A stretch of DNA of 64,000 bases from a virus: the IMG/VR virus record IMGVR_UViG_3300021520_000002, positions 62,001 to 126,000 of that record. The stretch is one strand, 5' to 3'. Made by a program: the position numbers and the translations under genes. The notes beneath the pieces are model-generated. The model searched no databases. It saw only the letters and a program-made list of their open reading frames with translations, and was not told where the DNA came from. Each line of letters starts with the position of its first letter. Position 1 is the first letter of the stretch. This document shows positions 49,615 through 60,470 of the stretch, piece after piece.

Positions 49615-49884
49615 TTATGGCCTCAATTTAACATCATATACAAGATTATTATGAATCAAACCTCCTAACTTAACAGCTTCATTCATTTTATCTTTATATA
49701 TAACTTTGCTAATTGTAAAACCAACAGACATTCCAACTAATACCCAAATTATCAGAATAGTTAAATGTTTCTTTAACCAGATATTGAGTTTATCCCACCA
49801 ATCTATTGGAGAATTAAAAGTTTTTACTTGTTGTTTCTGATTCATTATTATTTCACTTTCTGGATTGTATATTCCTTCACTCAT
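49615..49884 (-). CDS. Single-pass membrane protein, 89 aa
   Basis: One transmembrane helix near residues 42-60 (ILIIWVLVGMSVGFTISKV) with a basic flank before it (WLKKHL), so the N-terminus is probably cytoplasmic. Overlaps the gmhB-like gene upstream by 8 bases. Function unknown. Confidence 0.6.
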   Translation of the reverse strand: MSEGIYNPESEIIMNQKQQVKTFNSPIDWWDKLNIWLKKHLTILIIWVLVGMSVGFTISKVIYKDKMNEAVKLGGLIHNNLVYDVKLRP

Positions 49885-50374
49885 TTTTAACTCCTTTTAC
49901 ATTTTCTTGTATAAACTCTAAAAGATTTCCACCTTCAAATTTATATCCTTTTATTCCAGCGGCAAAAGCTGCTTGCATATCTCTATCACGATCTCCAATC
50001 ATAAAAGAAGCACCAGTATTTATTGGATTATTATCAAAAATTGCCGATAGAAATAAACCTGTCTTTGGTTTTCTACAACCACAATCATCTTCATCAATAT
50101 GTGGACATATATAGAATGCATCGATTTTTTTGCCGATATTAACTTCTAATGTTTTATTTATCCATTGATGTAATTTATCGACTTGTTTCTTTGTATATAA
50201 TTTTTTACCGATACCACTTTGATTAGTGATAACAATAACTTTATATCCATTCTTTTTTAATAATTTAATAGCTTCTTTAGCTCCATCGATCCATTTAAAA
50301 TCTTTCTTATCCCAAATATATCCAACATCATGATTGATAACTCCATCACGATCTAAAAAAGCAATCTTATTCAT
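49877..50374 (-). CDS. gmhB: D-glycero-D-manno-heptose-1,7-bisphosphate 7-phosphatase
   Basis: HAD-family phosphatase, 165 aa. FLDRDGVIN at residues 6-14 supplies the catalytic Asp pair; VIVITNQSGIG is HAD motif II; CPHIDEDDCGCRKPKTG near 88-104 is the zinc-binding loop plus motif III Lys that distinguishes GmhB; IGDRDRDMQAA is motif IV. In the ADP-heptose pathway it removes one phosphate from heptose bisphosphate. Other pathway genes lie just upstream in the same direction. Confidence 0.88.
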   Translation of the reverse strand: MNKIAFLDRDGVINHDVGYIWDKKDFKWIDGAKEAIKLLKKNGYKVIVITNQSGIGKKLYTKKQVDKLHQWINKTLEVNIGKKIDAFYICPHIDEDDCGCRKPKTGLFLSAIFDNNPINTGASFMIGDRDRDMQAAFAAGIKGYKFEGGNLLEFIQENVKGVKNE

Positions 50375-50378
50375 TTAT

Positions 50379-50573
50379 TTATCCTTTTATAATTAAATTT
50401 TCTATAAAGCGTTCAATTACAGTTTCAAAATATGATTGATGTTGATATGGGTTATCTTCTTTTTGTTCAATAATTGCTTGAAGTAATTTTTCTTTTATCA
50501 TTTTTGAAATTTCTATTTTATCATTTTCATTTAATATTATATTATAATATTTTTTTGGTTCTAATGTTGCCAT
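50379..50573 (-). CDS. Hypothetical protein, 64 aa
   Basis: Helical small protein (YFETVIERFIENLIIKG at the C-terminus), start overlapping the upstream stop by one base. No family known; in the ADP-heptose gene string. Confidence 0.5.
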   Translation of the reverse strand: MATLEPKKYYNIILNENDKIEISKMIKEKLLQAIIEQKEDNPYQHQSYFETVIERFIENLIIKG

Positions 50574-50908
50574 TATTTTACTTCCTTATCGAAATGACCC
50601 ATATTATAATGTTTTTCAAGATCTTCCATATTATTAATTAATATATTACACGAACAAGCTATTGAATCTTTTCCTCTTATAGTATCTACAACTTCATCTA
50701 ATGATGGTCTTATCATTTCTTTCATTTCTAAAGGTGGAGTATTTATATAATCAATTATAAAGTTTATTTGATTAGAACATTCATTAACTTTATTCCAAAT
50801 ATCAGTTTGCCAAGCATGTCTAACTTTAAGACCTTGTGATGCACCAGTTTTTTCATTTACAATTTCTTCAAAAAGTGGTGGTAATTTTTCAATCTTTTTC
50901 ATAACCAT
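50573..50908 (-). CDS. Hypothetical protein, 111 aa
   Basis: Overlaps the heptose kinase gene by 20 bases. Helical, with a single CSCN motif near residue 88 and His-rich end (HYNMGHFDKEVK). No family known. An in-frame atg two codons after the first (50902) is an alternative start. Confidence 0.5.
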   Translation of the reverse strand: MVMKKIEKLPPLFEEIVNEKTGASQGLKVRHAWQTDIWNKVNECSNQINFIIDYINTPPLEMKEMIRPSLDEVVDTIRGKDSIACSCNILINNMEDLEKHYNMGHFDKEVK

Positions 50909-51842
50909 TCTCCTCTAAATGTTTAATTAATTCTTCTTGTGTTATAGCGGCAGTTCCTAATTTTTCAACTACAAGTCCAGCTGCTATATTAGATAATTTA
51001 ACAGCTTGTTCAATTTCTGCTCCAGCACCAAGTGCAAGAGCAAGAACTGATACAACTGTGTCACCTGCGCCGCTAACATCATATACTTGTCTAGCTGTTG
51101 ATGGAAAGTCTAATCTATCTTTATCTCTACGAAGAAGAGTCATACCTTTTTCACCTCTAGTGATAAGTATATTTTTAATATCAAAACTTCCATTTAAATA
51201 ATCTAATTTATCAATATCATCACTATTTGTTACAAGAAATAATTCTTTCATATTAGGAGTTATAACAGTTGCTCCAGAATACTTACGCCAATTTTTTCTT
51301 TTTGGATCTATTATGATTGGTTTATTTCTGAAATGGGACATTACAACATCCAATATATCATCTGTTACTGTTCCTTTATCATAATCTGATATCACAACAA
51401 CATCAAAATCTTCATAATTATTTATATTATCAAATATTATTTTATTTTCATCAATAACAGATATTTGGTGATTTGGTTCTTTATCTATTCTTACAATTTG
51501 ATGACCATGAGCAACTATTCTATTTTTAGTAATAGTTGACCAAAATTTATCAATAAATAAATTTGATCTTATATCAAAATTTTCAAATGATTGTTTGAGA
51601 ATTTTTCCATCATCATCATCACCAATTACACCTGTTATTTCAACATTTCCTCTAAGTGATTTGATATTATAAGCTGTATTGCCAGCTCCCCCAGGTCTCA
51701 TAGTTGTTCGTTCAAATTTCATAATAGGAACTGGAGCTTCAGGAGATATCCTATCTACAGTTCCTATTGTGTATTTATCTAACATTACATCTCCAATAAC
51801 AAACACTTTAACTTGACTAAATTTTTCAATTATTTGTTTCAT
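50889..51842 (-). CDS. hldE: D-glycero-beta-D-manno-heptose-7-phosphate kinase (HldE domain 1 type)
   Basis: PfkB/ribokinase-family kinase, 317 aa, matching the N-terminal half of bacterial HldE. FVIGDVMLDKYTIGTVDRIS at 14-33 and SPEAPVPIM are the family's substrate-binding start; RPGGAGNTAYN near 49-59 and YDVSGAGDT near 253-261 are the PfkB signatures, the latter with the catalytic Asp. Unlike the bacterial enzyme, the cytidylyltransferase half is missing here and is found fused to GmhA at 52589. Confidence 0.9.
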   Translation of the reverse strand: MKQIIEKFSQVKVFVIGDVMLDKYTIGTVDRISPEAPVPIMKFERTTMRPGGAGNTAYNIKSLRGNVEITGVIGDDDDGKILKQSFENFDIRSNLFIDKFWSTITKNRIVAHGHQIVRIDKEPNHQISVIDENKIIFDNINNYEDFDVVVISDYDKGTVTDDILDVVMSHFRNKPIIIDPKRKNWRKYSGATVITPNMKELFLVTNSDDIDKLDYLNGSFDIKNILITRGEKGMTLLRRDKDRLDFPSTARQVYDVSGAGDTVVSVLALALGAGAEIEQAVKLSNIAAGLVVEKLGTAAITQEELIKHLEENGYEKD

Positions 51843-52168
51843 TATTTTTCTCCAAAATATCTTCTATAAAAGTTTTTCTCACCATCATGGTGATTACTTC
51901 TTTCAATACCATGTTCAAAAATAGCGCTTTTAATTCTTTGTAGAAATCTAGGCATCTCTTTTTCACTAGGTTTCTTTTTCATTCCTAATAACATTACAGC
52001 ATCACCCAATGCTTCTCTTAATTTCCAATTATTTTGTCTTTCACAAAAATTTTTATAATCTTTAAGAGATTGTGTTACAGATCCTAAAATTTCTGGAATA
52101 TGTTCTGGATATTCTGAAATGAAATTCTTAATTTTTTTAAGTTGTTCTTCTTGTTCATATGGTAGCAT
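51842..52168 (-). CDS. Unknown protein, 108 aa
   Basis: The atg at 52168-52166 follows aaaaggagacaa. A longer open frame to 52336 exists but runs through the rRNA-like RNA element and has a different base composition, so it is rejected. Helical protein (LKKIKNFISEYPEHIPEILG, then MPRFLQRIKSAIFEHG). The start of the next gene overlaps its stop by one base. Unknown function. Confidence 0.6.
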   Translation of the reverse strand: MLPYEQEEQLKKIKNFISEYPEHIPEILGSVTQSLKDYKNFCERQNNWKLREALGDAVMLLGMKKKPSEKEMPRFLQRIKSAIFEHGIERSNHHDGEKNFYRRYFGEK

Positions 52169-52183
52169 TTGTCTCCTTTTTAT

Positions 52184-52341
52184 ATGAAATGGTGCGCTAT
52201 TACGCCAAAAGATTCCAACCCTGTATCCCACCCATGGCACATCACTTAAAGCTCTTACCCCTTTAAGCATTTTGCACCAGGTGGAGTGTTCATATCTACT
52301 CTTTAAAGGATGGCTGCTTCGAGGCCTACCTCCCATTTCAT
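52184..52341 (-). ncRNA. RNA element resembling the 23S rRNA GTPase-associated centre, with insertion
   Basis: On the minus strand gaagcagccatcctttaaagagt (52298-52320) is followed 92 bases later by gcgtaatagcgcac (52192-52205). In bacterial 23S rRNA these two stretches are adjacent (E. coli about 1068-1104, the L11/thiostrepton-binding region). Upstream, ggc-ctc-gaag keeps the spacing of ggc-uua-gaag, and the outer strands atgaaatgg / ccatttcat pair over 9 bp where 23S has ccag/cugg. The 92-base insert folds by itself (gcttaaag / ctttaagt and ggtgca / tgtgcc). It lies between two genes of the heptose string. Confidence 0.65.
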
Positions 52342-52344
52342 TTA

Positions 52345-52602
52345 TTAGAAATGTTTATCGTTACGAAATGGAATATTATCATAATTTCCATAATCACCAA
52401 AAATTTCCATAGGAACTAATATTTGTTTATCATTATGTGAATGATTTCTAAGATTATATATAATACTAGACATTCTATCAATTGTTTTTTGTAACTTTTT
52501 CACTTCTATTCTTGTACGTTCAATTTTTTCACTATCACTAAGTTCTTCCCAATATTTTTCTCTACTACATACTGCTTTGTCTTGTTGTTCATCCATTTTC
52601 AA
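52345..52602 (-). CDS. Hypothetical coiled-coil protein, 85 aa
   Basis: Overlaps the upstream gene by 14 bases. Helical centre with heptads (RIEVKKLQKTIDRMSSIIYN) and a polar tail. Unknown function. Confidence 0.5.
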   Translation of the reverse strand: MKMDEQQDKAVCSREKYWEELSDSEKIERTRIEVKKLQKTIDRMSSIIYNLRNHSHNDKQILVPMEIFGDYGNYDNIPFRNDKHF

Positions 52603-53569
52603 TTTCTCCTTTCATTCTTTCTCTGATAGTTGTATATATCATATGATTGATCATGAAATAAACTTCTTGAATAATTTCAGTTATAAGTGATGGTATTCGA
52701 ATGGTATAATTACTATTATTCACTAGATTTATACTTGGATTTTGTCCAGCAAAAGTAATAATTTTACATTTTACACGTTGCCCTTCAAGAGCAGCTCGTA
52801 ATATATTTTTTGATTTGCCGCTAGTTGAAAGTAATAATAAAACATCTTTTTTATCTAAAAAAGGTATAAGTAGATTATGAAAAACATATTCATAAGATAC
52901 ATCATTACCCATTGAAGTTACAGCTGAAATGTTTTCTGTAAGAGCGATTGCTGGAAGTCCTATACACATAAATTCACCAGCTAGATGAATCGCATCTGCA
53001 GCACTTCCTCCATTACCACATATTACTAATTTACCACCTCTTTTAAAAGATTTAAATATAACATCAATAATTTCTTTAATTATACCATTATGTTTTTCAT
53101 TTTCATCTAATAATTTTATTGCTTCACAGTGAATTTTCATATATCCATTTTCAGGAAGACATGATTTTTGAATATTACTAATAATATTAGTTGTTGAATA
53201 TTTATCAAGTCTTGGAATAGCAACAACTTCACCACTCCATTCTTTTACAAGTTCTTCTTCAATCTCTAATCTTCCTTCCCAATCTCCACCTTTAACAATA
53301 ATATCTGGTTTTATTCTTTTTATTAAATTATCAGGTCTTTCTTCATTAAATACAATAACATTATCGACATATCTTGTATGTAATAACATTACTTCTCTAT
53401 CTACCTGATTTCTAAAAGGTTTTCTTCCTCTTAGTTTCTCGAATGATGAATCACTATTTAAACCAACAATTAATTCATCACCAAGTGATTTAGCTTTTCT
53501 AAGTAAATGAAGGTGACCAGGATGTAATATTTCAAAACATCCATTAGTGAATACTGTTTTTGGTTTCAT
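52589..53569 (-). CDS. Fusion of HldC-type adenylyltransferase and GmhA isomerase
   Basis: 326 aa, two enzymes in one chain. Residues 1-135 are a cytidylyltransferase-type domain with TNGCFEILHPGHLHLLRKA (HxGH motif) and VKGGDWEG, as in HldE domain 2/HldC, which makes ADP-heptose from heptose-1-phosphate. Residues about 140-326 are a SIS-domain sedoheptulose-7-phosphate isomerase: ICGNGGSAADAIHLAGEF and LLSTSGKSKNIL. The first and last common steps of the pathway are thus joined; I know HldE as kinase-transferase but not this pairing as standard. The kinase and phosphatase lie downstream. Confidence 0.88.
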   Translation of the reverse strand: MKPKTVFTNGCFEILHPGHLHLLRKAKSLGDELIVGLNSDSSFEKLRGRKPFRNQVDREVMLLHTRYVDNVIVFNEERPDNLIKRIKPDIIVKGGDWEGRLEIEEELVKEWSGEVVAIPRLDKYSTTNIISNIQKSCLPENGYMKIHCEAIKLLDENEKHNGIIKEIIDVIFKSFKRGGKLVICGNGGSAADAIHLAGEFMCIGLPAIALTENISAVTSMGNDVSYEYVFHNLLIPFLDKKDVLLLLSTSGKSKNILRAALEGQRVKCKIITFAGQNPSINLVNNSNYTIRIPSLITEIIQEVYFMINHMIYTTIRERMKGEIENG

Positions 53570-56424: not shown

Positions 56425-56512
56425 TGGTGGCGCTGACTGGACTTGAACCAGCATGGAGAAAATCTCCGAGAGATTTTAAATCTCTTGTGTAAACCAATTC
56501 CACCACAGCGCC
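56425..56512 (-). tRNA. tRNA-Leu(TAA)
   Basis: 88 nt with encoded CCA. Acceptor ggcgctg / cagcgcc plus acca; D-arm tggtggaattggtttacaca; anticodon arm agaga-tttaaaa-tctct with anticodon TAA; long variable arm; T-arm ctggttcaagtccag. All standard. Confidence 0.95.
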
Positions 56513-56519
56513 GATTATG

Positions 56520-56789
56520 TTAAGATTTACATTTATTTAATAGAATAATTGTTACTTTCAAAAAATCAACAAGATGATCAGCATCATATACACTTTCATA
56601 TTCAAAATCTTCTTCAGCTTCAAATATCGAAATATATTTACTATTGATAGTTTCTCTTTTTTCTTCTAATTTATCCATTTTTGAACTTTTTTGTTTATCT
56701 TCATTAAGCATTTCTAAATTTAAAACATATATTTTTTCTTCTAACATTGTTAATTCAATGATATCTTTTTTTATTTCATCTATTGTCAT
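56520..56789 (-). CDS. Hypothetical coiled-coil protein, 89 aa
   Basis: The atg at 56789-56787 follows aaaaggaaaataaaa; a longer frame enters the tRNA-Ser gene and is rejected. Strongly helical, with heptads around MDKLEEKRETINSKYI. Sits between two tRNA genes. Unknown function. Confidence 0.6.
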   Translation of the reverse strand: MTIDEIKKDIIELTMLEEKIYVLNLEMLNEDKQKSSKMDKLEEKRETINSKYISIFEAEEDFEYESVYDADHLVDFLKVTIILLNKCKS

Positions 56790-56814
56790 TTTTATTTTCC
56801 TTTTTTGTATTATT

Positions 56815-56904
56815 TGGCGGAGAGCGTAGGATTTGAACCCACGAACCGCTTTCACGATTTCTAGTTTTCAAGACTAGCACCATCAGCCTCTCGGTCAGCT
56901 CTCC
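56815..56904 (-). tRNA. tRNA-Ser(TGA)
   Basis: 90 nt with encoded CCA. Acceptor ggagagc / gctctcc with discriminator G; anticodon arm ctagt-cttgaaa-actag (TGA); long variable arm; T-arm gtgggttcaaatcctac. Confidence 0.95.
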
Positions 56905-56910
56905 ATTTAA

Positions 56911-57150
56911 TTATTTGCCGATTTTAATTTTCTCTATAATTTTACAATCCTCTAAATGACAAAAATCATCAATTCTACAATCATAGCAAACTGTTAGATT
57001 TGGACAACAATCTTCAACTATTCTAAAAACATCATTACCAAATCTACCATGTAGTTTATTTAAAATAAATGTGATCATTCTACTATTTTTAGCTGTAATA
57101 AGTTTACAATCATTACATTTCTCATCACATAAATATCTTCTATCTTTCAT
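56911..57150 (-). CDS. Cys-rich protein, 79 aa
   Basis: Nine cysteines in pairs: CDEKCNDC, CC, CYDC and CHLEDC. A multi-zinc or disulfide-rich miniprotein. Overlaps the DnaJ-type zinc protein by 11 bases. No family known. Confidence 0.6.
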   Translation of the reverse strand: MKDRRYLCDEKCNDCKLITAKNSRMITFILNKLHGRFGNDVFRIVEDCCPNLTVCYDCRIDDFCHLEDCKIIEKIKIGK

Positions 57151-57391
57151 TGTAATACTCTCTTTTTATATGAACAATTTTAACACACTCACATGGAACT
57201 TTTCTAACTCTCCCAGAAAGTCTTTTCTTAGGAACTGAACCTTCACCTTTACAAATTAAACAGTTTGGATCAGGATGTTTAGTTTCATATGGTTTGTATC
57301 TATCAATTGTAGAATCTATTACTTTATTAATATCGACCCCAACAAATGTTGCCATTGATGTTAATGTTAATAAACTTTTATCTTCCATCAT
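57140..57391 (-). CDS. Protein with DnaJ-type zinc motif, 83 aa
   Basis: CLICKGEGSVPKKRL and VPCECV give a CxxCxGxG repeat plus CxC, the half-unit of DnaJ zinc-finger domains. Helical N-terminus. Phages carry many such small proteins, of unknown role. Coupled to neighbours. Confidence 0.6.
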   Translation of the reverse strand: MMEDKSLLTLTSMATFVGVDINKVIDSTIDRYKPYETKHPDPNCLICKGEGSVPKKRLSGRVRKVPCECVKIVHIKREYYNER

Positions 57392-57588
57392 AACATTCCA
57401 GTTACATAAATTCTAACATATGGTATATCAATAGCATTAATACAATGAGTAACAGTAACTACTTTTCCAATTGCTCCACCACTAATAGATCTAATAAAAT
57501 CTCCAATTCTTGGAACAGCAACAAATGTTTTTGGCCAAAATAATGTTTTAAGATTATCTTCGTTTGATGTGACTTCACCTGCTATCAT
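57388..57588 (-). CDS. Hypothetical SH3-like protein, 66 aa
   Basis: Beta-rich sequence AVPRIGDFIRSISGGAIGKV with a Gly turn, suggesting a small SH3-like barrel, as in many phage accessory proteins. Starts after aaggagagaaa. Unknown function. Confidence 0.5.
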   Translation of the reverse strand: MIAGEVTSNEDNLKTLFWPKTFVAVPRIGDFIRSISGGAIGKVVTVTHCINAIDIPYVRIYVTGML

Positions 57589-57597
57589 TTTCTCTCC

Positions 57598-57798
57598 TTA
57601 ACATACACAATGATCTGGAATTTCCATTAACCAAACTCTCCAATATTTTTCTTTTTCAGCAAAAGACATATCTTTAACATCTAAATCTTTTGGATGTCTA
57701 TAAAAATCATTACCTAATTGTGATAATTTTTCATCTTGTTTTAAATTCTTTTTTAAATGTTGTAAAGTACAATAGTTACATTTTGTTAGTTCACTCAT
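57598..57798 (-). CDS. Cys-rich hypothetical protein, 66 aa
   Basis: The atg at 57798 overlaps the upstream tga (atga). CNYCTLQHLKK at the start and a C-terminal CVC frame a basic helical centre. I recall a similar phage family starting C-x-x-C-x-L-x-x-L. Unknown function. Confidence 0.55.
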   Translation of the reverse strand: MSELTKCNYCTLQHLKKNLKQDEKLSQLGNDFYRHPKDLDVKDMSFAEKEKYWRVWLMEIPDHCVC

Positions 57799-58073
57799 TT
57801 CATTTTCCATTTTGCTACAAGTTCCCAATTTCCAAATCTTTCATCAAAATATATAATCATATCAGAATCATTAATAGATGTAGATAACGTTTCAATTTCT
57901 GTTTTTAATATGTTAGATTCAAATTCTGCAGTTTGTGATATCATATTTTTTAAATGTCTAAACTTTTCTAATTTTGCATTTACTTGAATTTCAATTAATT
58001 CTTTTATAATTTCTTTTTTAAAAACTTCAAGTATACTTTTTATTTCTTTTTCTAAGTCCATTTTATATTCCAT
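57795..58073 (-). CDS. Coiled-coil hypothetical protein, 92 aa
   Basis: Lys/Glu-rich helix over the first 60 residues (VFKKEIIKELIEIQVNAKLE), then SDMIIYFDERFGNWELVAKW. Overlaps neighbours. Unknown function. Confidence 0.5.
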   Translation of the reverse strand: MEYKMDLEKEIKSILEVFKKEIIKELIEIQVNAKLEKFRHLKNMISQTAEFESNILKTEIETLSTSINDSDMIIYFDERFGNWELVAKWKMK

Positions 58074-58461
58074 CCCAAGGTGAATAAAGATTTAGATTAC
58101 CTCTTTTTTTGATTGCCCAACGATGACTTCCTGGACCAATAAATTCTATAAATCCATTTTCAGTATCATTAACTCCAGATACTCCACCATGTCTAATATC
58201 AAAACCTTCAGAAAAATCTTTGCCTCGAACATTGAAAAATGCCGTTCCTGGTAATCCATTTTGATCATTTTCTGTTGGCTTTAAAGTAACATCTAAAATA
58301 TCTGTTATTATTATTTCATCAAAAATAATATCTCTCTCATTTGCTAATCGTTGATCAACAAGAGGACCACTATCATATACCTTTCCACCAATCCAATATA
58401 CACTGTTATCAACTATATCTGTAAGATCAGGAAAAAACTTTCCATCCACCATTAAGTACAT
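58063..58461 (-). CDS. Unknown beta-rich protein, 132 aa
   Basis: Strong aaaggaggtagt site downstream of a promoter candidate. Beta-rich with GTAFFNVRGKDFSEGFDIRH and FIEFIGPGSHRWAI. It may be a small structural or decorating protein; no family known. First gene of a minus-strand unit. Confidence 0.6.
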   Translation of the reverse strand: MYLMVDGKFFPDLTDIVDNSVYWIGGKVYDSGPLVDQRLANERDIIFDEIIITDILDVTLKPTENDQNGLPGTAFFNVRGKDFSEGFDIRHGGVSGVNDTENGFIEFIGPGSHRWAIKKRGNLNLYSPWDGI

Positions 58462-58493
58462 ACTACCTCCTTTTGAAATTAAAATATATTTAT

Positions 58494-58506
58494 ATTATTT
58501 CTATAT
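58494..58506 (-). promoter_or_regulatory. Putative phage promoter (ATATAGAAAT class)
   Basis: Minus strand atatagaaataat, 33 bases upstream of the start at 58461 and downstream of a terminator. Confidence 0.55.
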
Positions 58507-58528
58507 GAATTAAGCTAAAATTAAAAAT

Positions 58529-58562
58529 TATCGGCAAGACCTATTTCTAGATCTTGCCGATA
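58529..58562 (-). terminator. Palindromic terminator, ATCGGCAAGATCT family
   Basis: tatcggcaagat-class stem (tatcggcaagacct / agatcttgccgata, one wobble), 5 bases after the stop of the gene at 58568. Confidence 0.8.
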
Positions 58563-58567
58563 TTAAT

Positions 58568-59215
58568 TTATTTCCAATTATCCTGAATCACCACTTTTCC
58601 ATCAATATGGGTGTGGCGTCCAATTTTATCTATGAGTTTATCATGTTCTAATATTATATCTATTAATCTATCATTAATTACAGAAATTTCTCCATCAATT
58701 CTTTTCATCCATGCTATTACAGCTTCAGAGAAAGATGAGACTTCCACTATTCCTTTAACTGTTTTCTCTTTAGGTTCTTCAATAATAGTTTTCTGTTTAG
58801 GTTCTTCAAAGATAGATTTTATCTTTTGTTGTCTTGTAATAAGTTCTCTTGGTGGAACTACAAATTTCAAATCCCAATCAAAAGTATACTTTTCTAAAGC
58901 AACCCAAGGATTTGTTATTTTAGGTAATTTTATAACTCTTTTATAAAATTCTTCCCAAGACACAGCACTTTTTACAATTGTTGCCAATTTAAAAAGTATA
59001 GTATCAGGAATCAATACAATATCGTTACCAGTTATTCCTAATTTTTTATTTCTAAGTTTTGAAGCATTAAATGTTTTGATAAGAGTAGTTGCTATTTTAT
59101 ATCTAAGAGTTTCGATATCATCACATTTATGTTTCATTGCCGATAAAATAAAATCTATTTGTTTTCCATTTAATTTTTTAAATTCTTCTATTATTTGACT
59201 GTATTGTTTACTCAT
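58568..59215 (-). CDS. Unknown protein, 215 aa
   Basis: Helical N-terminal two thirds, a Glu/Lys repeat (IIEEPKEKTVKGIVE) near residue 140, and a C-terminal coiled coil. No motif recognised. It directly follows the transglycosylase gene, overlapping none. Confidence 0.6.
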   Translation of the reverse strand: MSKQYSQIIEEFKKLNGKQIDFILSAMKHKCDDIETLRYKIATTLIKTFNASKLRNKKLGITGNDIVLIPDTILFKLATIVKSAVSWEEFYKRVIKLPKITNPWVALEKYTFDWDLKFVVPPRELITRQQKIKSIFEEPKQKTIIEEPKEKTVKGIVEVSSFSEAVIAWMKRIDGEISVINDRLIDIILEHDKLIDKIGRHTHIDGKVVIQDNWK

Positions 59216-59216
59216 T

Positions 59217-59762
59217 TTACTCCTTTAGTAATTGAGTATATAAGTTCATTACATGTTTAGCTTGCTTATGAGCTACAGGATTGTTTCCACCTTTATATAA
59301 AGCAAGCGCCTTTTGTAAGTCTCCATTCGTTTCTTTTAGTTTTTGTTGCAGAATACGTACTCCATGTAAAGTATCTACATCGCTAAAAGAACTTGCTGTT
59401 GGTGTTTGTAGAATTCCTTTATATCTAACAGGAGTTCTATTTTTAGGTCCAACTGCTTGTTCGTCAAAATTTGATTCTGTTTTCATAAGAGCAGTAATTA
59501 ATTTATTATTAAGTCCTGTTTGTTTATGTGAAACTAGAATCGCCTTTACCAGTTCCGGTACTTTATTTTTTGGAGCATGAAGTCTATTTAAATCTTTTTC
59601 AATTTGTTCTGATAATAATTGATCTTTTGTTTTTAAAATTTCTATTTTTATTTCTTGCTTTTTTAGTACCGGCACTGGCAATGAATTGTTCAAACTATTA
59701 TATGTAACTACTACAAAGTATATACACATACATTGAATAAACAGTCTTGTCAGTAACTTCAT
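59217..59762 (-). CDS. Membrane-anchored lytic transglycosylase (endolysin candidate)
   Basis: 181 aa. The N-terminal hydrophobic helix (LFIQCMCIYFVVVTYN) acts as anchor or signal-arrest-release segment. Residues about 85-175 are an SLT/lysozyme-like domain: LITALMKTESNFDEQAVGPK with the catalytic Glu, then YKGILQTPTAS and LALYKGGNNP. It would cleave glycan strands at lysis. Two tiny membrane proteins lie just upstream in the same unit, an arrangement typical of holin-endolysin cassettes. Confidence 0.8.
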   Translation of the reverse strand: MKLLTRLFIQCMCIYFVVVTYNSLNNSLPVPVLKKQEIKIEILKTKDQLLSEQIEKDLNRLHAPKNKVPELVKAILVSHKQTGLNNKLITALMKTESNFDEQAVGPKNRTPVRYKGILQTPTASSFSDVDTLHGVRILQQKLKETNGDLQKALALYKGGNNPVAHKQAKHVMNLYTQLLKE

Positions 59763-59775
59763 TATATACTACCTC

Positions 59776-59928
59776 CTAAGTTTTTCTATTATCATTCTCT
59801 GAAATTTTTTGAGCTTTTTCTTGTGCTTTATTTGCAAATTCATTAACTTTATTTCTAAATTTATTACTATAAATGTATAGGCTTATCGCCCATCCAATAA
59901 TTAGTATTATCCAAAACCAATCCATCAT
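59776..59928 (-). CDS. Small membrane protein B (holin candidate), 50 aa
   Basis: Starts on the base after the stop of the upstream paralog (taaatg). MMDWFWIILIIGWAISLYIY is a single transmembrane helix, followed by a charged amphipathic helix. Its layout matches its neighbour. Its end carries the aggagg site of the transglycosylase gene. Confidence 0.6.
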   Translation of the reverse strand: MMDWFWIILIIGWAISLYIYSNKFRNKVNEFANKAQEKAQKISENDNRKT

Positions 59929-60081
59929 TTATACCTTATCTTTATCTGAAATATCTTGAGCTGTACCTTTTATTTTATCTGCTCCAGCATCAACAACTTT
60001 TTTGAATGTTTTACTATAAATATATAAGGTTATCATCCAACCTATAAAACATATTATTGCTGCCCACACCCAAAAGTCCAT
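59929..60081 (-). CDS. Small membrane protein A (holin candidate), 50 aa
   Basis: Starts after aaaaaggaggttaat. MDFWVWAAIICFIGWMITLY is a single transmembrane helix with a charged C-terminal helix (GADKIKGTAQDISDKDKV). Same length and pattern as the next gene (D-x-W...I-x-W-x-x-x-L-Y-I-Y-S), so the two are probably tandem duplicates. Holin and antiholin or spanin-like roles are open. Confidence 0.6.
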   Translation of the reverse strand: MDFWVWAAIICFIGWMITLYIYSKTFKKVVDAGADKIKGTAQDISDKDKV

Positions 60082-60094
60082 ATTAACCTCCTTT

Positions 60095-60361
60095 TTAGTC
60101 GTTTCTTATATCAATGATTTTTGCTAAATAAATTGAATAAGAATTTTTTGGATCTTTTTCTTCAAATTTAAATAAATTATTTAAATATTTTGAAATTTTA
60201 TTTCTTTTCTTTAAAATAAGAGTATGAGTTGATGTGAAATCACTAAATTGTTCTTCTGTTATAATATTTTCAGTAACTAATTGTTTAAGAATAACTTCTT
60301 TAATATTATCACCAAAATTTTGTAGATCTTCAAATGAGTAATCAAAATGTTCTATTATCAT
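60095..60361 (-). CDS. Hypothetical protein, 88 aa
   Basis: Helical, Lys/Asp-rich. Contains TLILKKRNKISKYLNNLFKF. No family known. Starts after aaaaagaggtaaa, close to the tRNA-Met gene. Confidence 0.5.
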   Translation of the reverse strand: MIIEHFDYSFEDLQNFGDNIKEVILKQLVTENIITEEQFSDFTSTHTLILKKRNKISKYLNNLFKFEEKDPKNSYSIYLAKIIDIRND

Positions 60362-60386
60362 TTTACCTCTTTTTGTTAGATTGAGT

Positions 60387-60456
60387 TGCAGGGGTCAGAC
60401 TTGAACTGACGACTTGAAGCTTATGAGGCTTCCACGCTACCTCTGCGTCACCCTGC
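60387..60456 (-). tRNA. tRNA-Met(CAT)
   Basis: 70 nt, no encoded CCA. Acceptor gcaggg / ccctgc with a T-C mismatch at its base; compact D-arm; anticodon arm gaagc-ctcataa-gcttc with anticodon CAT; T-arm gtcagttcaagtctgac. The G1-C72 pair and the anticodon stem do not look like an initiator; elongator Met or, if modified, Ile is likely. Confidence 0.88.
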
Positions 60457-60470
60457 AAATCTTTTAAGAA

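Follow-up and report, generated by a model that had tools for sequence, protein, structure and literature searches.

Several described systems come close to the RNA element that is addressed here. Phages carry short RNAs that copy a host RNA and occupy a host protein, and the Racr (phage RNA anti-CRISPRs) and the type III antitoxin-like RNAs are such molecules, mimicking CRISPR repeats or antitoxin RNA. GOLLD and ROOL are large, structured, phage-associated non-coding RNAs, which are found near tRNA genes. The mimicry of rRNA is known from the r-protein leaders (L1, L10 and others), which capture a ribosomal protein and act in cis on r-protein mRNAs, as in the case of L1 (PMC10931766). The phage element shares rRNA mimicry with these leaders, but it has neither a downstream r-protein gene nor a fixed neighbour. 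Compared by description, it differs from the Racr and antitoxin-like RNAs in that it mimics rRNA, and its core is accounted for by rRNA identity. Like GOLLD and ROOL it lies near tRNA genes, yet Rfam scans of the window and of 18 element loci gave no match to either. No family of Rfam 15 covers the element, and no earlier description was found in the open-licence literature, a scope to which preprints and subscription papers do not belong. To our knowledge, the element would be the first viral mimic of a functional centre of the ribosome that stands alone, and a trans-acting viral copy of such a centre would, as far as we know, be new in kind.

The centre in question is the GTPase-associated centre (GAC) of 23S rRNA, the part of the ribosome that is held by L11 and the translation GTPases. 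L11 is known to bind this domain on its own. Within it, U1060 is a modelled L11 contact, and A1067 and A1095 are the thiopeptide bases, at a site between L11 and the RNA (PMC9769715). The activation of RelA requires L11 (PMC4974054).

The window, which is the whole stretch of 64,000 nucleotides analysed, spans bases 62001-126000 of a virus record of 285,572 bases. Its phage is a contractile-tailed jumbo phage, with tail-sheath, head and UvsX-like genes present. The whole element, from P1 to P1, occupies 52184-52341 on the minus strand, as delimited by the register with 111 relatives and 23S and by CM hits. An 85-aa ORF upstream of it ends at 52345, and downstream a ribosome-binding site is followed by an ATG at 52168, while a further ORF, starting at 52336, runs through the element. 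Three tRNA genes, Leu, Ser and Met (window 56425-60457, minus strand), share the element's strand at a distance of 4-8 kb. The element is also surrounded by heptose-pathway-like genes (window 49877-53569), encoding a PfkB-type kinase, a cytidylyltransferase fused to a SIS (GmhA-like) domain and a HAD phosphatase, which suggests a phage-encoded synthesis of ADP-heptose.

The core of the element matches the GAC of E. coli 23S rRNA at 1051-1108, and up to 1090 the window coordinate equals 53388 minus the E. coli position. The first-pass annotation, made from the letters of the window, had recognised the motifs gaagcagccatcctttaaagagt and gcgtaatagcgcac, and both are indeed present on the minus strand in the order and register of 23S. 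All features that follow lie on this strand. The outer stem that had been described is the helix P1, of 9 bp, in which the 5' strand at 52333-52341 (23S 1055 outward) pairs with the 3' strand at 52184-52192 (23S 1104 outward); the register is that of 23S 1055/1104 outward, and both strands covary in relatives. The H43 equivalent (23S 1057-1081), the thiostrepton-loop hairpin, lies at 52307-52331 by 23S alignment and helix pairing. It bears C52321 at the A1067 equivalent, as had been read before, and the window copy has extra changes at 1065-1067. The junction UUAAAGAG (23S 1082-1089; 52299-52306), with the 1082-1086 pair and A1088, is placed by covariation and conservation, and the U1090 equivalent follows at 52298.

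A large insert in the H44 strand ahead of the GUAAUA loop had also been claimed, and it is present, at a site between 1090 and 1091. The inserted domain (52210-52297, class A) is supported by closing-stem pairing, by its insert class and by compensatory changes against the sister element L095, and is closed by 52297-52294 paired with 52210-52213. Its stated size of 92 nt holds if UUUG is counted, but between U1090 and UUUG there are 88 nt (52297-52210). The UUUG linker itself (52206-52209) is specific to the phage family, as UUU(G/A), with UUU in 110 of 111 relatives and then G or A. The H44 tip (23S 1091-1102; 52194-52205 by 23S alignment) holds the GUAAUA loop with A1095, and G52195 stands in place of 23S U1101. 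Minimum-free-energy (MFE) folding of the window copy returns P1 and the helices of the insert, but the GAC is not obtained in full (z -2.63); this could be expected of a fold that depends on tertiary contacts.

At least 111 non-redundant relatives were collected, the fuzzy two-part scan giving at least 163 pairs of parts. A search of viral contigs with the 5' motif alone gave 64 loci, and the matches listed for a 3' motif peculiar to the phage version were used as well. A scan of genome contigs gave 30 matches, of which the two-part scan recognised 17 as elements. Two loci were left out as ordinary 23S, namely L073 (MZ092003.1, Paenibacillus phage Pd_22F) and L053 (an IMG/VR contig); the bacterial 23S segment that each of them contains has the look of host sequence or of a misassembly. 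Searches of named phages showed that about 20 cultured phages carry the element. These include Pseudomonas phages pf16, UNO-G1W1, Astolliot and Milchi, Aeromonas phage 4_4572, Xanthomonas phages XacN1, XbC2 and XaC1, Cronobacter phage GAP32, Pectobacterium phage CBB, Serratia phage BF, Erwinia phage Kaldavass and six pEa_SNUABM phages of Erwinia, Acinetobacter phage ME3 and Vibrio phage 2.275.O. There is one copy per phage record (24 of 24 records examined). In GAP32, where the genes of the region are densely packed, the element takes up an unannotated gap between two of them. A Flintibacter isolate genome has it next to phage tail-fibre, RNA-ligase-like and methyltransferase genes, so that it probably lies in a prophage there.

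The proposal of a GAC-mimicking phage RNA under selection for structure, first made on the window alone, is supported by the relatives, in which covariation is extreme. The covariation set comprised 57 sequences and included neither the window copy nor 23S. Under the GAC structure with P1 and the insert stem, 94.0% of cells are paired versus 67.0% when shuffled, and the covariation score is 0.673 versus 0.151, with none of 500 shuffles as high. Sliding the partner by 1-3 columns lowers the score to 0.09-0.20. Changes on both sides occur in 20 of the 25 pairs; the H43 helix is 99.1% paired, and four of its six pairs have changed on both sides. The 1082-1086 pair appears in relatives as U-A, C-G and A-U, and the 1058-1080 pair as G-C, U-A, A-U and C-G. 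P1, H43, the tip of H44 and the stem of the insert also emerge from RNAalifold when no structure is supplied. As some search patterns could bias the pairing counts, these were re-counted on the 41 non-redundant elements that the 5' motif or blastn had retrieved. In this set, P1 is 92.1% paired versus 53.3% on random re-pairing (the highest of 1000 being 61.5%), and the insert stem 99.2% versus 60.7%.

The homology with 23S is seen with a phage-only CM, trained on the 57 relatives but on neither the window copy nor 23S, which matches the GAC in nine of nine bacterial 23S sequences (E 2.8e-11 to 5.8e-8). The same CM matches the window element as two halves, one with 35.7 bits (E 2e-6) and the other with 27.8 bits (E 2e-4). 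The LSU model, with which the first-pass annotation had proposed a check, recognises the sister element L095 (31.9 bits, E 8.8e-8), but its score on the window copy is not significant. The L095 match to the Rfam LSU model (RF02541) covers only model positions 1095-1146. The window phage's own genome has no match to RF02541, and the flanks of the elements are ORFs or tRNAs. An Rfam scan of the whole window and a scan of the region at E<=1 gave no match for the element, and the scan of 18 element loci returned tRNAs only, with no match to another family above the gathering score.

With the bacterial 23S GAC (H43/H44, within RF02541), the element shares the fold, a near-identical core, the register, the outer-stem register and the 1082-1086 pair. 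Unlike the 23S GAC, it is a stand-alone gene with the rest of 23S absent, its P1 is free in sequence and longer (9-11 bp), and it has a domain of 23-365 nt at 1090/1091, the UUU(G/A) linker and A or G at 1101. The bases of the fold are retained throughout the 111 relatives, with U1060, C1072, A1085 and A1095 in 111/111 and A1088 in 110/111, and A1077 is also nearly invariant. The base at 1067 varies, being A in 94/111, and 1068, 1070 and 1096 vary too. The features of the family are equally stable: the insert is at 1090/1091 in all copies and the linker is UUU(G/A), and in the 41 elements of the 5'-side discovery set position 1101 is A in 38 and G in three, never U, where the 23S sequences compared have U. 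In a small test, the 23S of the genome that carries the L102 element resembled this element no more closely than other 23S sequences did. A recent capture of host rRNA is unlikely, and the members of the family evolve on their own rather than being fresh copies of host rRNA. We hold it as nearly certain that these phage RNAs form a real and functional family with homology to the GAC.

The inserted domain is the variable part. Its length ranges from 23 to 365 nt (median 127) among the 111 relatives, and its closing pairs are formed in 110, 108 and 103 of them. The smallest inserts are a hairpin alone. Module A, GUGCRAAAUGC...AGUGAUGUGC, occurs in 14 otherwise unrelated copies, including that of the window. 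Module B, CACCCCG-tetraloop-YGGUAAGG, occurs in 25 copies, directly 5' of the UUUG linker, and its tetraloop is GNRA or UAAC (for example in L031, L069 and L044). The GAC is therefore the part of the molecule that stays constant, and the insert the one that can be exchanged. The possibility that module B (GGCACCCCGGAAACGGUAAGGCU) is a copy of the 23S peptidyl-transferase sequence was rejected, as by eye its functional bases are not kept. The terminal loop of the window insert, GGGGUAAGAG (52252-52261), has the same letters in L095 and L029, and resembles GGUAAGAG, the loop of P12 in bacterial RNase P.

The genomic context often includes tRNA genes. A tRNA gene is no more than 20 nt away from 46 of 110 elements, when 1.8 would be expected from random placement in the same loci, and wherever a tRNA occurs within 300 nt (62 elements) the element shares its strand. 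The 265 neighbouring proteins, scanned in two batches, contain no Pfam family in more than two per batch. Among the 25 carrier records, no phage-encoded L11 and no RelA/SpoT was found. An L12-like ribosomal domain is encoded in four of these 25 (G018, G019, G022 and PP551948.2). Of RNA-repair-like genes, a kinase-phosphatase-RNA ligase adjoins the element in the Flintibacter genome (L096:2522-4714), and an annotated 2'-5' RNA ligase adjoins it in XacN1 (L070:2331-2981).

The element is a stand-alone phage RNA gene rather than a relic, and its core folds as the 23S GAC (H43/H44), closed by the long P1 helix and with the variable extra domain sitting in H44. Because many copies stand in a tRNA array on the same strand, the RNA is probably cut out and would accumulate as a stable molecule. 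We propose that it acts in trans by binding host uL11, and perhaps also the GTPase factors that touch H43/H44. L11 would be sequestered or held off ribosomes during infection, the most likely outcome being less RelA activation and an altered use of factors on host ribosomes. As no carrier encodes L11, any L11 partner would be that of the host, and a decoy for host L11 is the simplest reading, given that L11 binds the GAC on its own. Suppression of the stringent response is a plausible outcome, since RelA activation needs L11. The variation at A1067, 1068, 1070 and 1096 means that contact with GTPase factors may not be selected. A cell has tens of thousands of ribosomes with one L11 each, so that a decoy would need high abundance. 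Additionally, a simple L11 decoy leaves the insert, of up to 365 nt and with conserved modules of its own, unexplained. Judged from sequence, we consider the case for an L11-binding decoy RNA to be evenly balanced.

Other readings of the element have to be weighed against this decoy. A captured, decaying rRNA fragment, an alternative already raised in the first-pass annotation, and a coding sequence that resembles rRNA both have next to no probability. The window ORF from 52336 passes through the element, and the intact frame that had been named as a sign against an RNA is open here, but only 10 of 111 relatives keep this single possible forward frame, and no other forward frame is kept open in any of the 111. 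Against L095, the window shows 13 nonsynonymous and five synonymous codons together with four compensatory helix pairs. The apparent protein match between the window ORF and L095 (70%) falls within the element itself and is due to RNA conservation. On these frames and helix changes a coding sequence was rejected, and the element is non-coding. The covariation in 111 non-redundant copies refutes the scar, and the absence of U at 1101 in the 5'-side discovery set also speaks against it; a scar is further excluded because the element is non-coding, has no recurrent protein neighbour and has no Rfam match. A cis-acting leader or processing element for adjacent genes, like the r-protein leaders, would suit the window copy, placed between two ORFs and directly ahead of a ribosome-binding site and ATG. 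It is very improbable, however, as the adjacent genes differ with no family recurring, and many copies lie within tRNA arrays. Entry of the RNA into ribosomes, or replacement of a damaged GAC to yield phage-modified ribosomes, agrees with a core nearly identical to 23S in the functional loops. We regard it as very improbable, for P1 replaces the H42 connection, and the H44 domain would probably clash or leave the RNA unanchored.

Two further readings keep the action in trans and change the partner of the RNA. The GAC fold could recruit EF-G, EF-Tu, IF2, the L10/L12 stalk or a phage protein, with the element as a scaffold and the variable domain as its second hand. EF-G is bound in vitro by GAC oligonucleotides, the inserts are structured and have modules common to unrelated copies, and the L12-like domain of four carrier phages would fit as well. 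Such a ligand is nevertheless rather unlikely, because the loop bases 1067, 1068, 1070 and 1096 are more variable than the bases of the tertiary fold, no recurrent protein family adjoins the element, and some inserts are as small as a 23-nt hairpin. The element could also serve in counter-defence, as a decoy for some host toxin, nuclease or modification enzyme directed at the 23S GAC, and would then be comparable to the phage tRNAs that withstand tRNA-cutting defences. Its location with tRNA genes is in keeping with this, as are single neighbours such as RNA ligases, an RNA-repair-like protein (L096), a Tad2-like protein and the CBASS inhibitor Acb3. We think counter-defence quite unlikely, as these anti-defence neighbours are single cases among 265 proteins, and no bacterial defence aimed at the GAC is known to us.

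We tentatively advance the broader view, which we hold with somewhat less than even confidence, that a widespread and hitherto undescribed viral RNA class captures host L11 or translational GTPases by copying the GAC, and carries an exchangeable second domain, so that large phages reset host translation or silence the stringent response. The GAC mimic is present in unrelated large phages, several of them cultured, and whether and how such phages target the site where factors bind to the host ribosome becomes a testable question. The family also offers a natural collection of GAC variants, whose covariation is an independent source of data on a classic tertiary fold of RNA, and studies of RelA and the thiopeptides gain a new natural candidate for L11 binding.
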